The notes under the pieces are model-generated. The model ran no database searches, was not told where the DNA came from, and saw only the letters and a list, made by a program, of their open reading frames with translations. A program made the translations under genes and the position numbers. A DNA stretch of 64,000 bases from Vulcaniibacterium tengchongense (lineage in GTDB: Bacteria; Pseudomonadota; Gammaproteobacteria; Xanthomonadales; Xanthomonadaceae). Shown piece after piece: positions 17,197 to 26,824 of the stretch. The stretch's first letter is position 1; each line of letters starts with the position of its first letter. The stretch spans positions 1-64,000 of the forward strand of contig NZ_RKQN01000004.1 of the NCBI RefSeq assembly GCF_003814555.1, given 5' to 3'.

Positions 17197-20100
17197 TCAG
17201 AAGCGCTGCTGGTAACGCAGGTAGTAGAAGCGGCCGATGTCGAAACCACCGTACATGCCGAAGTCGGAGTTCGGGCTGGTGTACAGATAGGTACCCTGAT
17301 GGTCGAACACGTTGTTGGCGCCGACCGCGACGGTCGCATTCCACGGCGTGTTGTAGCGGAACTGCACGTCGTGGAACGTGTTGGCACCCGTCTCGTTGGT
17401 CGGCTGCTGCAGTGTGTACGGGGACGAGAAATCGGGATCGCTGCACTCGTTCTCGTACGCGCACGCTTCCTTCAGGCCGGAGTAGTAACGGACGCTCCAA
17501 GTGGCGCCGAAGTCCTCATAACCCCAATCCACGCTCAGGTTCGAACGCGTGCGGAAGAAGGCGCTACCGTCGACGCTCCAACCGTTCTTCTGCTCGACCG
17601 GAGTAACCGCTTCGTTGTCGCGCTTGTACTCCCAGTAATCGACGTACGAGGTCTTCCAATCGATGGTGAAGGTGCCGATCGAGGTCTCAGGCAGGCGATA
17701 ACGGACGTTGAAGTCGTAACCTGCGGTTTCCTGATAGCCGCCGTTCACCAGGGTCACGGTCGCGTCGTAGATTTCGCCCGGAGCAGTACCGATGTTGCCG
17801 ACGAGGTCGCGCGTGAAGCCAGAGCACGAGGACGCGATCCCAAGCACGTAGCAGCGATTGAGGATCGCGGTCATCGTCTCAGCGGCGATCACGTCTTCGA
17901 TCTTGATCTTCCACCAATCGAGGCTGACGTCTAGACCTTCCACGAAGCTCGGGCTGTACACGAAGCCGAAGGTGGTCGACTTTGAGGTTTCCGGCTTCAG
18001 GTTCGGGTTCGAGGTGACCAGGAACGGCCAGTCGGCTTGTTGGTTCGGACCGGCGGCCACAGTGCCGCCCGAGGCGATCTGGCGGAAGTCCGCCGGGACA
18101 CCGGCCGCTTGGCAGCGCGCAGCGACTTCGGGGTTGCCGGCAGCGGCGCCGAAGCTGGTGTCGCACGGATCGGTGTAGAACGCGAAGGTCTGCGAGCTAC
18201 CGCCGTACAGGTCGCCCAGAGTCGGAGCGCGGAAGCCTGTTGCATAGGTACCGCGGACCAGCAGGTCTTCAATCGGACGCCACTTCAGGCCGAACTTTCC
18301 GTTGGTGGTATCACCGAAGGTGTCGTAGTCCGAGTAGCGGCCCGCCACGTCGATCGACAGCTCCTTGGCGAACGCCACGTCGGCGAGAATGGGAACGTTG
18401 AACTCGACATAGAACTCGTCGAGCGAATAACCACCCGCCGTCACGCCGCCCGCGAGGTCGGTGCTAAGACCCGACTGCTTGAGCGCATCGGGCTCGAAGC
18501 GCGCGTCTTCCTTGCGGTGCTCGTAGCCGACCGCCATGTTCAAGTCGCCAGCCGGCAGCGTCGCCAGCGTGCCGCTCAGGTTGAGGCTGTAGATGTGGGT
18601 GGTTGTCTCGGACGTGTCATGCGTCGGCAGGAACAGGTAATCCTGCAGCGCCTGATTGCCGGTCAAACCGCCCGGGCCGACCTGGCCATAGGGCAGAGCC
18701 GGGTTCCAAGGCACGCAGCCGTCGATGACCGCGCCCGGGGCACCGCAGCGGGCCACACCATCGGCGTCGATGAAGCTCGGCCCCAGCGCGTTCCGCGCAT
18801 TCGGGATGAACAGGTTACCGGTCCCGGTCTGTACACCCTTGTTCTGGTTGTAGACGTAGCCGGCGTCCCAAACCCACGGCTTGTCGCCGATATCGAACGC
18901 GCCTTCCAGGCCCGCGCTGAAGCGGTAAGTAGTCAGCTCGTTGTTGGTCTGACGCGGCACTTCGGAGGTGCGGCGGATGAACTGCGCATCCTCGCCGAAT
19001 GGGTTATACACATTGTCAGCCGACCAAATGTTCCGAACTCCATCGTTGCTGCTGGTGGAGCCGAAGGGATAGCCGGCAATCTGCTGCAGCGTCTCGCGAT
19101 GAGTGTACAGCGCGTCGGCGCTCAGGCGCAGGTTGTCGGTGAAGTCGAAGCTACCGGAGGCGAACACCGAACGGCGTTCGATACCGGTACGCAGGAACAT
19201 CTGCTCATTCGGATTGACGAGATCAAAGTTCTCGCCTTCGCCATACGGGTGATAGTTGGCCGGGTTGCTGGGATCCGCACCCGGGTTGAGCACCCACTGG
19301 CCCGTCGAGGTAATGATTCTGCCCTTATCGGTATTGCCACTCCAACCGTTCGGGCCTTCCTCTTCCGTGGGCAGGGGGTGCCATGGGCCACCCGAATACC
19401 TAGAGAACTCACGGTTGCGAGCATAGACCGGCTCTTCCTTGGTGTACTCGGCACCCAGCGTGATCGAGCTGCGCTCGCCGGTGCTGCCCAGCAAGAAGTT
19501 GTAGGTCTGCACCTCGCCGTCGCCTTCGCTGTACTGGCCAACGTAACCGCTGGCCTCGAGGCCGTCGAAGTTCTTGCGGGTGATGATGTTGATCACGCCG
19601 GCGATCGCGTCGGAACCGTAGATCGCCGAGGCGCCGTCGGTGAGCACCTCGATACGCTCGACCGCCGCGGTCGGAATCGAAGCGAGGTCGGAGTAACCGT
19701 TCGAGCTGATGCCCAGACGCTTGCCGTCGAGCAGGACCAGCGTACGCTGCGGACCCAGGTTGCGCAGGTCGACGTACTGACCGCCGACCTCTTCACCGGA
19801 GGACAGCGCGTTGGCGCGGCTGATAGCCGGCGAGCCGGTGGTGGTGATGTTCTGCAGGATGTCGCCGACGCTGGTGAAGCCCTGCTTCTGGATCTGCTCG
19901 CGCGTCATCATGATGACCGGGTTAGCGGTCTCGATGCTGGCCTGACGAATGCGCGAACCCGTGACCTCGATGCGGTCAAGAGTAGTGGCGTCCCGCTCCC
20001 CACCCTCCTGAGCGCTGGCGAACGCCGGCGCCAATGCGATCGCGATGCCCGCCGGCAGCATGCCGACGCGCAGCGCGGTGCGCAGATTGCGATGGTTCAT
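17197..20100 (-). CDS. TonB-dependent outer-membrane receptor
   Basis: 967 residues. Signal peptide about 1-30, then the TonB-box-like LDRIEVTGSRIRQ (42-54), a plug domain (about 60-175, with NLGPQRTLVLLDGKRLG, ERIEVLTDGASAIYGSDAIAGVINIITRKNFDG) and a long 22-strand-type barrel ending in aromatic FYYLRYQQRF. The sequence resembles the large oligosaccharide/peptide-type receptors common in Lysobacter and Xanthomonas rather than siderophore receptors, so ligand is unknown. GGAGAGAG precedes the ATG; an inverted repeat lies in the leader. Its GC content is visibly lower than the flanking housekeeping genes (many third-position A/T), as seen for transferred or relaxed genes. An AraC regulator lies just upstream on the same strand, a likely controller. 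Confidence 0.93.
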   Translation of the reverse strand: MNHRNLRTALRVGMLPAGIAIALAPAFASAQEGGERDATTLDRIEVTGSRIRQASIETANPVIMMTREQIQKQGFTSVGDILQNITTTGSPAISRANALSSGEEVGGQYVDLRNLGPQRTLVLLDGKRLGISSNGYSDLASIPTAAVERIEVLTDGASAIYGSDAIAGVINIITRKNFDGLEASGYVGQYSEGDGEVQTYNFLLGSTGERSSITLGAEYTKEEPVYARNREFSRYSGGPWHPLPTEEEGPNGWSGNTDKGRIITSTGQWVLNPGADPSNPANYHPYGEGENFDLVNPNEQMFLRTGIERRSVFASGSFDFTDNLRLSADALYTHRETLQQIAGYPFGSTSSNDGVRNIWSADNVYNPFGEDAQFIRRTSEVPRQTNNELTTYRFSAGLEGAFDIGDKPWVWDAGYVYNQNKGVQTGTGNLFIPNARNALGPSFIDADGVARCGAPGAVIDGCVPWNPALPYGQVGPGGLTGNQALQDYLFLPTHDTSETTTHIYSLNLSGTLATLPAGDLNMAVGYEHRKEDARFEPDALKQSGLSTDLAGGVTAGGYSLDEFYVEFNVPILADVAFAKELSIDVAGRYSDYDTFGDTTNGKFGLKWRPIEDLLVRGTYATGFRAPTLGDLYGGSSQTFAFYTDPCDTSFGAAAGNPEVAARCQAAGVPADFRQIASGGTVAAGPNQQADWPFLVTSNPNLKPETSKSTTFGFVYSPSFVEGLDVSLDWWKIKIEDVIAAETMTAILNRCYVLGIASSCSGFTRDLVGNIGTAPGEIYDATVTLVNGGYQETAGYDFNVRYRLPETSIGTFTIDWKTSYVDYWEYKRDNEAVTPVEQKNGWSVDGSAFFRTRSNLSVDWGYEDFGATWSVRYYSGLKEACAYENECSDPDFSSPYTLQQPTNETGANTFHDVQFRYNTPWNATVAVGANNVFDHQGTYLYTSPNSDFGMYGGFDIGRFYYLRYQQRF

Positions 20101-20162: not shown

Positions 20163-21062
20163 TCACGCCGTCGCTTTGCGGCTGGCCGCGGGAGACTTTG
20201 CCGATCCTGTCCGGGAGGCCTGGGCGGCCGCGGCGCGGTAGCGCGTGGCGGACACGCCGTAGCGGGCGCGGAAGGCGCGGGCGAAGCTGCAGCAGTTGTC
20301 GAACCCGCTGGCCGCGGCGATCTCCCCGATCATCATCGAGGTGGTGCGCAGCAGCTCGGCGGCGCGCTCCAGGCGCATCCGCGCGGAAGCCGCCTGCGGG
20401 CTCTCCTCGTACAGGCTGTGGAAGGTCTTGGAGAAGTACCAGCTGGAGAAGCTGGTCAGTTCGGCCAGTTCGCTGATCCGCACCACCCGGTCGCAGTTGC
20501 CTTCCAGGTACAGGCGGGCGCGCTGCAGGCGACCGAACACCTGGCGCTTGCGGCTGCGCGAGCGCCCGGGGCAACGCGGGATCCGCGCGGCGATGTCGCG
20601 CTGCATCGCCACCAGATGCAGCAGGATCGGGCGCAGCGCGGCGGCCTCACCGCCCGCATCGCCGACCCGCGCCGCGGCCTCGCGCCACAGGCGCAGGGCG
20701 ATACGGGCGTCATGGGCCGACATCCGGCCGCGCCCGGCGTAGAGCCCCCGGTCCGCGTAGCGGGTCATTTCCCGCAGGGCGTCGGCGCTGAGCGCCAGGC
20801 CCAGGCACAGCCCGTAGCGATCGCTCTGCACGGTGGGCTTGGAGTCCTTCTCGAAGGCAATCCAGTCGCCGCGCCGCAGCCGGAACTTGCCCTCCTTCGC
20901 CTCCACCCAGCTGCTGCCGCGCAGCTGCACCCAGATCGAGAACCCGCTGTTCAGCTGGGCGCTGCCCAGCCGCGAGACCCCCATGCAAACCCCTTGGACC
21001 GCGCCCTCCGGCAACTCGAGCTGCGCCAGCTGGCCCCGGTCCGCCCATTGCACTTGCTCCAC
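20163..21062 (-). CDS. AraC-family transcriptional regulator
   Basis: 299 residues. N-terminal half has no recognised ligand domain (a cupin-like beta region is possible, WVQLRGSSWVEAKEGKFRLRRGDWIAFEKDS). The C-terminal 100 residues hold the two AraC helix-turn-helix motifs, ISELAELTSFSSWYFSKTFHSLYEESP and IGEIAAASGFDNCCSFARAFRARYGVSATRYR. An Arg-rich linker (PRCPGRSRSRKRQ) separates the halves. The start is GTG at 21062, with GAGGTGG a few bases upstream; no in-frame ATG serves. It lies directly upstream of the TonB receptor gene on the same strand, so it most likely controls it. Confidence 0.9.
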   Translation of the reverse strand: MEQVQWADRGQLAQLELPEGAVQGVCMGVSRLGSAQLNSGFSIWVQLRGSSWVEAKEGKFRLRRGDWIAFEKDSKPTVQSDRYGLCLGLALSADALREMTRYADRGLYAGRGRMSAHDARIALRLWREAAARVGDAGGEAAALRPILLHLVAMQRDIAARIPRCPGRSRSRKRQVFGRLQRARLYLEGNCDRVVRISELAELTSFSSWYFSKTFHSLYEESPQAASARMRLERAAELLRTTSMMIGEIAAASGFDNCCSFARAFRARYGVSATRYRAAAAQASRTGSAKSPAASRKATA

Positions 21063-21205: not shown

Positions 21206-23547
21206 CTACTTGCCCCAGCCGCCGACGCCGCCCGCCGGCTCTTCCGAAAGCTCCATGAAGCCGATGTCGGCGCCGTCCCACTCGACCAGGGCGAGGAACA
21301 GGGCGTCGCCGCGCGGGCTCAGGCCGAAACCGTTCAGGGCCGAACGCCGGGTCTGGTCGAGGCAACGGGCGGGGGCCTGCCCGCCCGACGGCTCGGCTCG
21401 CCGCAGCAAGGCGGCACAGCCCTGGCGCTGGTCCAGGTAGAGCACTCCGCCGTCGGGCGCCACCGCCCACATCCGGTTGCGCTCGAGCTCCGGCGCCTCG
21501 GCGTTCAGGCGATGCCGGCTGAGCGGGCTCAGCTCGAGGTCCGCCTGCCACAGCCCGCTCTGGGCCTGGCGCGAGAACAGCACCCGGCCGCGCGCGGCGT
21601 CGACCTGGAAGCGGGAGACGTCGTCGATCGCTGCCAACACCCGCCACGGCTGGCGCGAGCGGTCGAGCAGATGCAGGCGCAGGCGGCCGTCCGGGCCGCC
21701 GGCCAGCACCAGCAGCCGCTCCGCGCCGGGCAGGTAGGCGGCCTGCAGCGGCTCGGCCAGCGGCAGCGGCAGGGCGACGGCACGGCCGCTGGCCGGGGTG
21801 ACCTCCTGCAGTACCGCATGGCCGGCCTCGTCGCTGCCGACCACCAGCAAGCGCCGGGAATCGTCCGACCAGGCCGGCGCGAACCGGGTCACCGGGCGCA
21901 CCCCGGCGATCATGCGCAACGAATCGGGCTGGGTCAGGTCCGCCCACCACAGGCCGTTGCTGCCGGAACGGTCGGACACGAACACGAACTGGCGGCCGTC
22001 CGGCGCCGGCGTCGGCAGCACTTCGCGGCTCGACGACGGAAACAGCGGCTCGAGCACGTGCACCCGTCCGCTCCCCGCGGCCTCTTCGGCGGCGTCGTTC
22101 AGCGCGACCCGGAACAGGCTGAAGTACGGACGGCGTTGGACGAACGCCATCGCCCGCCGCGCCCGCGCGACCGCCGGCGATTGGCCGTCGGCGATGTCCA
22201 GCGCACGGGCGCTGCCGTCGTGCAGGTCGAGGCGGAACATCCGCGACTCCCCGTCCACCATCGCCCCGAACAGCAGCGCGCTGCCCTCGGGCAGCCAATC
22301 CCAGCCGCGGATGTCGGCATGCAGCCGGCTCAGCCGTTCCGGCGTGCCGCCCTGGGCGGGGATGCGCCAGAAATCGCCGAGCGGCGCATTGCGCACGAAC
22401 ACGATCCAGCGCCCGTCCGGGGAATAGCGCGGCGCGGCGTCGATGTCGAGCGCCTGGCGCGCGTAGCGGATCTCGCGCCAGGCGCCGCTGCCCAGATCGA
22501 GCACGCGAAGGCCGACGGCGCCGCGCTCGGTGGCCGTGCTGCCGAAGATCAGGCCGCTGCCGTCCGGCGTCCAATCGAAGCTCGGCATGCTGCGGTGGTC
22601 GCAGGCGCCGACCTCGCGATCGCCGCGCGCGTTCGGCGCGACCACCCGGATCGCGCAGCTCGTCCCGGGGTGACGCGCGCGTACGCGATCCAGCGCCCAT
22701 CCGGCGACCAGGCCGGGGCGATGTCGTCGCTGCCCTCCGGCGGACGGGTCAGCTGACGCGGCTGGGTCTGCTCGGTGGTCTGGATCAGGATCGCCTGGCC
22801 GCGCTGGCCCTCGGGGACCGCCACGTAAGCGATCAGCGCCGCGTCCGGCGACAACGTCGGCGAGGTCTCCGGGCCGAGCATCGAGGTGATCAACCGATAC
22901 GGCCGCTCGCTGCGCGGGGCGAGCGGGTTGGGCGCGGGATTGGCGCGGGCGTCGCGCTCGGCGCGCAGCCAGGCCCAGCCGACCAGCAGCATCACCAGCG
23001 CCAGCACCGCGCCGACCGCCCCGGCGATCGAGCGCCAGCCGCCGCGGGCGCTGGCCGGGGGCGGCGGAGGCAGCGGCGTCAGCGGCTCGCTCGGGTCGGC
23101 GCCCGGCAGCGCCGGATATTGCCCGGTGGAGCGCGACGGATCGGCCCAGCGCGCGTCGCCGACGCCGGCGTCGCCCGGCGCCGCCTGCAGCCATTCCACG
23201 GGGGCCAGCAAGCGGTAGCCGTTCTTGGCGATGGTCTCGATGTAATGGGGGTTGGCGCGCTCGTCGTCGAAGGCCTTGCGCAGCTGCGCGATGGCCTGCG
23301 TGACCACATCGTTGGTCGGCAGCGTGTCGGGCCACACTTCGGCCATCAGCGCATCCCGTCCGACCACGCGCCCGGACTGCTCCACCAGCACCAGCAGCAC
23401 CGCCATCGACTTGGGCGTGATCCGCAGCGGCCGGCGCCGGCCCGGCGCGTGCACCTCGCGCAGCGGGATGTCCACCAGGCAGTCGCCCACGCGCAGCCGC
23501 TCGGAGGGCAACGGAAGTGCGGCGGGTGGCTCGGAGGGTCTGGGCAT
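21206..23547 (-). pseudogene. Winged-helix/TolB-like transmembrane regulator, frameshifted
   Basis: The first part reads in one frame (start about 23547; ATGs at 23586 and 23670 also possible) and encodes an OmpR-type winged-helix DNA-binding domain (RPLRITPKSMAVLLVLVEQSGRVVGRDALMAEVWP...NGYRLLAPVEW), a proline-rich linker, one membrane helix (SIAGAVGAVLALVMLLVGWAWL) and the first WD40/TolB-like repeats. At 22663-22670 the frame changes; the remaining TolB-like beta-propeller repeats (SFDWTPDGSGLIFGS, RYSPDGRWIVFVR, PAPDGRQFVFVSDRSG) continue in the next frame to 21206. Adding one base to the CCCCGGG run gives one uninterrupted 780-residue protein, normal for CadC-like propeller regulators. 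Either a sequencing slip, a true inactivating deletion, or frameshifted expression; not decidable here. Confidence 0.75.
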
Positions 23548-23759
23548 GAATCCGCGATGCTCGGGCGCCAACCTGAACGACGTCATGTGCCGAACGCCGT
23601 GCCAGGGACGAATCGACCGATCCGGCAAAAACGCCGGACCCGATCGGGTAAGCGCTGGAAGGTCGGACATTCTAACGTCGGCCGGCTAACCCCAACGATC
23701 CGGGGTGGCTCCAGGCACCTCTCTCGCCGATGTCCTAATAGAACGATCTGTTCCCTCTT

Positions 23760-23796: not shown

Positions 23797-24483
23797 TCAG
23801 CGCTCCTGCGCGCGGACGATGGTCAGGCCGATCAGGCGCGACACCACCACCGCCACGTAGCCCACCCCGGCGAACTGCTCCAGCATCACCAGCACCCGCG
23901 CGGCGGCGCCCAGCGGCACCACGTCGCCCAGGCCGACGGCGGACAGGTTGGTGAAGCTCAGGAACAGCAGCTCGAGCCACACGCGCGGCCGCGCCGGCTC
24001 GACCGCGCCGGCGAAGCTGCCCGGGTACCAAGCCTGGCAGACGAAGAACGCGTAGGCGAAGCCCCAGGCCAACAGGGTGAAGGTGGCGCCGGCGGCGTAG
24101 AGCTCGTCGGCGGTGACTTGGTGGTCGCTCATCATGTACGCGATCAGGCTGCCGGCGGCGTAGAAGTACAGCAGGGCCTCCAGCGCCGAGGACGCGACCA
24201 GCAGCGCCTCGCTGCGCACCAGCACCGCCAGCAGCGACAGCACGAACGCGGGCACCGCGAGCGACCAGGCGATCCAAGTGCTCGCCGGGCTGCGATTGAC
24301 GACCCACACCGCCAGCGCCAGCGCCAGCACGCCGAACGCGCCGAACACCACCCGCCCGCCGCCGACCTGGTCGAACAGCGGATACAGCACCAGGCTGAGC
24401 AACTGCACCGCGAGCAGGAACGCCGACGGATGCCGGCGCGCGATCGCCTGCCAGCGCAGCGAGGCGAAGCGGTTCAAGGACAT
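23797..24483 (-). CDS. Two-transmembrane-type potassium/ion channel protein
   Basis: 228 residues with about six hydrophobic helices and a pore loop FTNLSAVGLGDVVPLGAAARVL, whose SAVGLGD resembles the potassium-channel filter T-x-G-x-G-D (the first Thr replaced by Ala, Gly-Leu-Gly kept). Fits the Ion_trans_2/KefB-like single-pore channel family; ion selectivity is uncertain because of the altered filter. The last helix ends with QFAGVGYVAVVVSRLIGLTI and a short cytoplasmic tail RAQER without a C-terminal ligand domain. Inner membrane. Start at 24483; upstream neighbours are thiC (same strand) beyond a 260-nt gap. Perhaps a small K+ or nonselective channel. Confidence 0.75.
   Translation of the reverse strand: MSLNRFASLRWQAIARRHPSAFLLAVQLLSLVLYPLFDQVGGGRVVFGAFGVLALALAVWVVNRSPASTWIAWSLAVPAFVLSLLAVLVRSEALLVASSALEALLYFYAAGSLIAYMMSDHQVTADELYAAGATFTLLAWGFAYAFFVCQAWYPGSFAGAVEPARPRVWLELLFLSFTNLSAVGLGDVVPLGAAARVLVMLEQFAGVGYVAVVVSRLIGLTIVRAQER

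Positions 24484-24743: not shown

Positions 24744-26824
<2,081 letters not shown>

Follow-up and report, generated by a model that had tools for sequence, protein, structure and literature searches.

Organization of the regulator locus

The window analysed here is a stretch of 64,000 nucleotides from Vulcaniibacterium tengchongense with a G+C content of 73%, in which a regulator gene on the minus strand (23670–21206) is interrupted by one change of frame, net −1 (Table 1). Pfam detected a winged-helix domain in the upstream piece (Trans_reg_C, PF00486; 3.5e-17, 62.7 bits for a cut-off of 26.2) and PD40 propeller repeats (PF07676) in both pieces, at 2.5e-11 upstream and, with further repeats, at 4.8e-17 downstream, thereby upholding the winged-helix/TolB-propeller architecture proposed in the initial annotation. 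By sequence, the winged helix comes closest to the solved structure of CadC (PDB 5ju7, 1.6e-17) and the propeller to that of TolB (7mx5, 5.7e-10); NCBIfam gave sub-threshold matches only, among which CadC and TolB ranked first. The gene is a conserved one-component membrane regulator of an ordinary type. Its product is predicted to combine a cytoplasmic winged helix, one putative membrane helix (a hydrophobic stretch read from the sequence by eye) and a periplasmic propeller, the probable sensor of an envelope or nutrient signal. A literature search on the winged-helix/propeller architecture returned nothing relevant among the matches listed.

The gene resembles those coding for CadC/ToxR-like membrane regulators with a TolB/PD40 propeller, such as that of Lysobacter sp. 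MMG2 (L009), in its winged helix, its propeller and its neighbours. Gene order is kept in the Lysobacter loci L009–L013, which carry thiC, the ion-channel gene (in four of the five), the regulator, the AraC-family regulator and the TonB-dependent receptor. Identity of the receptor to its Lysobacter counterparts is 43–45% in four loci and 53% in one, values taken from alignments that are cut by the end of the locus. The receptor gene may be the target of the two neighbouring regulators. A TPP riboswitch (RF00059, 59.6 bits) is found upstream of thiC at 26723–26824 on the minus strand.

Table 1. Features at and around the regulator gene in the window.
Feature	Coordinates	Strand	Remarks
TonB-dependent receptor	17197..20100	−	Pfam match; a TonB-dependent receptor follows in 5/5 Lysobacter loci
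AraC-family regulator	20163..21062	−	Pfam HTH_18; adjoins the gene in 5/5 Lysobacter loci, 68–79% identity
Downstream piece of the regulator	21206..22657	−	Remainder of the TolB-like propeller, open until its stop
Upstream piece of the regulator	22549..23547	−	332 aa from Met (Met42) at 23547, 373 aa from the ATG at 23670; CadC-like winged helix, hydrophobic stretch, first propeller repeat, then ~38 out-of-frame residues
Frame-change interval	22658..22674	−	17 bases; flanked by a conserved Arg and a conserved Cys that stand in different frames
Heptamer C_CCG_GGA	22663..22669	−	X_XXY_YYZ pattern, in frame, inside the 17-base interval
Ion-channel protein	23797..24483	−	Pfam Ion_trans_2; present in 4/5 Lysobacter loci

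Position of the change of frame

The upstream frame closes with a stop codon at 22551–22549 and the downstream frame with one at 21208–21206; the first listed start of the downstream frame, 23335, lies far upstream, in the overlap. We set the start of the gene near 23547 because alignments from further upstream hit a stop in eight loci, which represent five distinct proteins and are intact from residue 55 onward. Alignment with relatives placed the change of frame after the Arg codon at 22677 and before the Cys codon at 22657, and a codon-usage segmentation of the contig (300 kb), carried out blind to the finding, placed the switch between 22663 and 22664. The break sits where the match to a propeller repeat (residues 305–335) ends, and the runs of identical bases there are short (4 C, 3 G).

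Most of the initial description of the site was borne out. It had reported a frame break splitting the winged-helix and propeller parts, which the frames, the segmentation and the relatives all confirmed, and had located it at 22663–22670, where the segmentation switch indeed falls, inside the interval delimited by the relatives. The repaired protein of 780 residues was reproduced by counting from Met42 with a −1 slip at C_CCG_GGA, and the heptamer, said to fit the X-XXY-YYZ pattern, lies in frame at 22669–22663.

Conservation of the frame and age of the break

A search with the downstream piece gave matches at E ≤ 0.001 in 355 of 395 family genomes, many of them merely weak propeller matches. 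We read 63 relative loci in family genomes, all outside the genus of the window and with duplicates included (5 + 29 from the downstream-piece search + 9 + 20); the downstream piece is about 58–64% identical to loci L014–L042. Both domains are present in V. tengchongense, but in two reading frames, whereas both pieces stand in a single frame without a stop in 59 of the 63 loci, corresponding to 52 distinct proteins; unlike these CadC/ToxR-like orthologues, the V. tengchongense record is broken by −1. Of the four exceptions, L108 has one in-frame stop and L109, L110 and L112 are shifted elsewhere, so that none of the 63 loci shifts at the V. tengchongense site. These four breaks are either real losses or errors, and 4/63 is not a rate, since all four came from six loci chosen for their odd open frames. 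Comparison with homologues, one of the checks put forward in the initial annotation, confirmed the break and disclosed no shared frameshift site.

The loop between the conserved Arg and Cys has six residues in 31 of 43 loci and five in 11, and is longer in the one remaining locus (L013). The product of a −1 slip would have a six-residue loop, as in the 31, and two extra bases would correspond to five residues, as in the 11, a group that both trees place, with support of 0.99, as sister clade to the protein of the window. Because two loop lengths occur among relatives, a deficit of one base fits the data, and so does an excess of two. The initial reading of a missing base was right as to a net −1 break, while the loss of exactly one base is not established. 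Pro-Gly (CCN GGN) occupies the position of the break, unshifted, in 26 of the 43 loci (duplicates included) and in none of the 11 shorter-loop loci, the nearest relatives. Since this pair is common yet missing from the nearest 11, the protein sequence accounts for the heptamer only in part.

The ratio of root-to-tip distances of the C-terminal piece to the N-terminal piece is 0.85 for V. tengchongense compared to a median of 0.99 (rank 11 of 53). Third-position G+C in the downstream piece stays at 90–96% across six successive steps of 240 bases and reaches 100% over the final 21, and no second disabling change was found in its ~1,450 bases. The downstream piece is not evolving faster, so that the break is either recent or absent from the organism. 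An old pseudogene was rejected for the lack of both a second downstream break and faster change.

Sequence context of the break and ribosomal frameshifting

A lineage-specific programmed −1 frameshift at C_CCG_GGA would yield a short, sensor-free winged-helix regulator together with the 780-residue, propeller-bearing form. The heptamer lies in the correct frame within the 17-base interval. In-frame XXXYYY heptamers number 127 among the 81,053 codon positions of a 300-kb part of the contig, and the chance of any such heptamer within 5–11 codons is ~1–2%. According to the excerpted account of a study that measured all 64 heptamers in E. coli behind a strong IS3 pseudoknot (PMC4066793), 61 pass a two-fold threshold; C_CC.G_GG.A is not among the three failing heptamers and hence passed, though behind a strong stimulator, and its GGA belongs to the better GGN kind. 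The same excerpts, however, place C_CC.G_GG.A in a weaker motif class in E. coli, where GGN is on average less shift-prone than AAN and UUN and most heptamers that mix purines with pyrimidines are weaker; C_CC.G_GG.C did not reach the threshold, and both C_CC.G_GG.C and.U were rated poor frameshifters (PMC4066793).

The surroundings of the site argue further against recoding. Besides the break site, 92 other in-frame CCCGGG sites occur within the 300 kb of contig. Downstream RNA folds no better than shuffled sequences (z-scores of −0.60, 0.16 and −1.53, with pseudoknot-free folding), no upstream Shine-Dalgarno-like stimulator was found (the top AGGAGG match is 3/6), and a second frame break of the genome, described below, has no XXXYYY heptamer. 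As in −1 frameshifting of the dnaX and IS3/IS911 type, an X_XXZ_ZZN heptamer stands in frame, but here the site is unconserved, without an upstream Shine-Dalgarno sequence, with no unusual downstream fold in pseudoknot-free folding and of a weaker motif class. With a shift at this site in none of the 63 relative loci, a conserved programmed frameshift was rejected, and we regard a lineage-specific one as very improbable. Programmed frameshifting, offered as an option in the initial annotation, is accordingly unsupported: no relative shifts, no stimulator was found and the motif class is weak. CCCGGGA as a literature term was not found among the matches listed. If the shift were nevertheless programmed, it would represent a natural use of the C_CC.G_GG slippery class, of which the excerpts of the frameshifting literature searched gave no bacterial example.

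Two other origins were considered for the site. RNA polymerase slippage or phase variation was rejected on sequence inference because the runs are no longer than 4 C and 3 G. With 207 occurrences of CCCGGG in the contig for 184 expected, there is no depletion that would back a restriction-site story.

Frame breaks elsewhere in the genome

We scanned 1.1 Mb, about 31% of the genome, for switches of coding frame (300 kb of contig C4, which carries the window, and 400 kb each of C1 and C2). In a control with single-base deletions simulated in segments of 600 bases or longer, no closer than 200 bases to either end, the detector flagged 32 of 40 and missed 8; for the flagged ones the median error was 2.5 bases. 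It flagged 15 switches in the 1.1 Mb, one being the regulator and one more a real break in a glycosyltransferase gene. The other 13 look like junctions between different genes, gene ends or short stubs, two of the 13 having just 23 or 41 aa on one side (a third stub, of 27 aa, belongs to the second real break); these 13 we take to be non-breaks from a reading of their translations. The glycosyltransferase break, also net −1, lies on the minus strand near the 3′ end of the gene at about position 371980 of G000:C1 (about 11980 of L086). Matches to the glycosyltransferase at E < 1e-100 exist in 87 of 99 family genomes, its own included, and the tail past the break is in frame in all 14 relatives read. 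No in-frame XXXYYY heptamer occurs in the 180 bases around that break.

In a comparison with 400 kb of the best-matching relative, G128, confident matches were obtained for 116 of 253 proteins and a change of frame appeared in the regulator alone; in the reverse direction, from G128 to V. tengchongense, 127 of 834 proteins matched and none showed a change of frame. The scanned part is clean, yet net −1 breaks interrupt at least two of its conserved genes, each at a G+C-rich spot. A plasmid search gave no match.

Origin of the break

We lean somewhat towards a slip of sequencing or assembly as the source of the break and favour it over a recent null mutation. A net −1 (equally +2) base error would have arisen during either step at the short C/G run, the gene would be whole in the living strain, and the error would be a one-off confined to the record, the break thus being an artefact. 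Several observations speak for such an origin: the frame is unbroken in 59/63 relatives and none of the other four is shifted at the site, the downstream piece is unaccelerated with a normal third-position G+C to its end, and a second net −1 break, lacking any XXXYYY heptamer, interrupts the widely conserved glycosyltransferase gene. That two conserved genes are broken by net −1 at G+C-rich places tips the balance, in our view, towards an error of the record. In the excerpted text of a survey published in 2013 and covering 1,106 prokaryote genomes, singleton frameshifted genes validated by BLASTp were expected to result from sequencing errors rather than from indels (PMC3711429), an expectation that, given the date of publication, concerns older sequencing. 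The singletons of this GeneTack survey are of the same kind as the regulator, a break in a single genome validated by whole relatives, and we saw no difference between them in those excerpts (PMC3711429). On the other side, the scanned part is otherwise clean, with 13/15 switches looking like gene junctions, gene ends or short stubs and the regulator the sole candidate in the 116 comparisons with G128, the runs are short, and the regulator gene seems to be broken elsewhere in some relatives. A sequencing error, which the initial annotation had considered the simplest explanation, is hence plausible and backed by the glycosyltransferase break, but not proven.

That the scanned part of the assembly is otherwise clean speaks for a real and recent indel, which we judge quite possible, if not quite an even chance. 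Such a null allele would leave a 332-residue winged-helix membrane protein minus most of its propeller, with an untranslated or unexported remainder. Two additional bases fit the five-residue loop of the sister clade and a deficit of one base the loop of farther relatives, and the stop or shifts found elsewhere in 4/63 loci, out of six picked for odd frames, suggest that loss of the regulator may be tolerated. Weighing against a null allele are the absence of a second disabling change or of acceleration downstream, the conservation of the neighbours and the similar break in the widely conserved glycosyltransferase gene. A split of the regulator gene into two working proteins is scarcely credible in spite of the normal third-position G+C of both pieces: the cut coincides with the end of a match to a propeller repeat, the downstream piece begins within the propeller, no export segment was seen when the sequence was read by eye, and the first listed start of the downstream frame lies far upstream in the overlap. 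Two separate genes were likewise rejected.

The site looks like an ordinary one, either an error of the record, which we favour, or a recent null allele, and looks unlike a site of ribosomal recoding. In annotation, the gene is best marked as a frameshifted version of a conserved regulator and not as a case of recoding. Taken together, the breaks in the regulator and in the glycosyltransferase suggest that one-base breaks in this assembly of V. tengchongense need checking against the reads.
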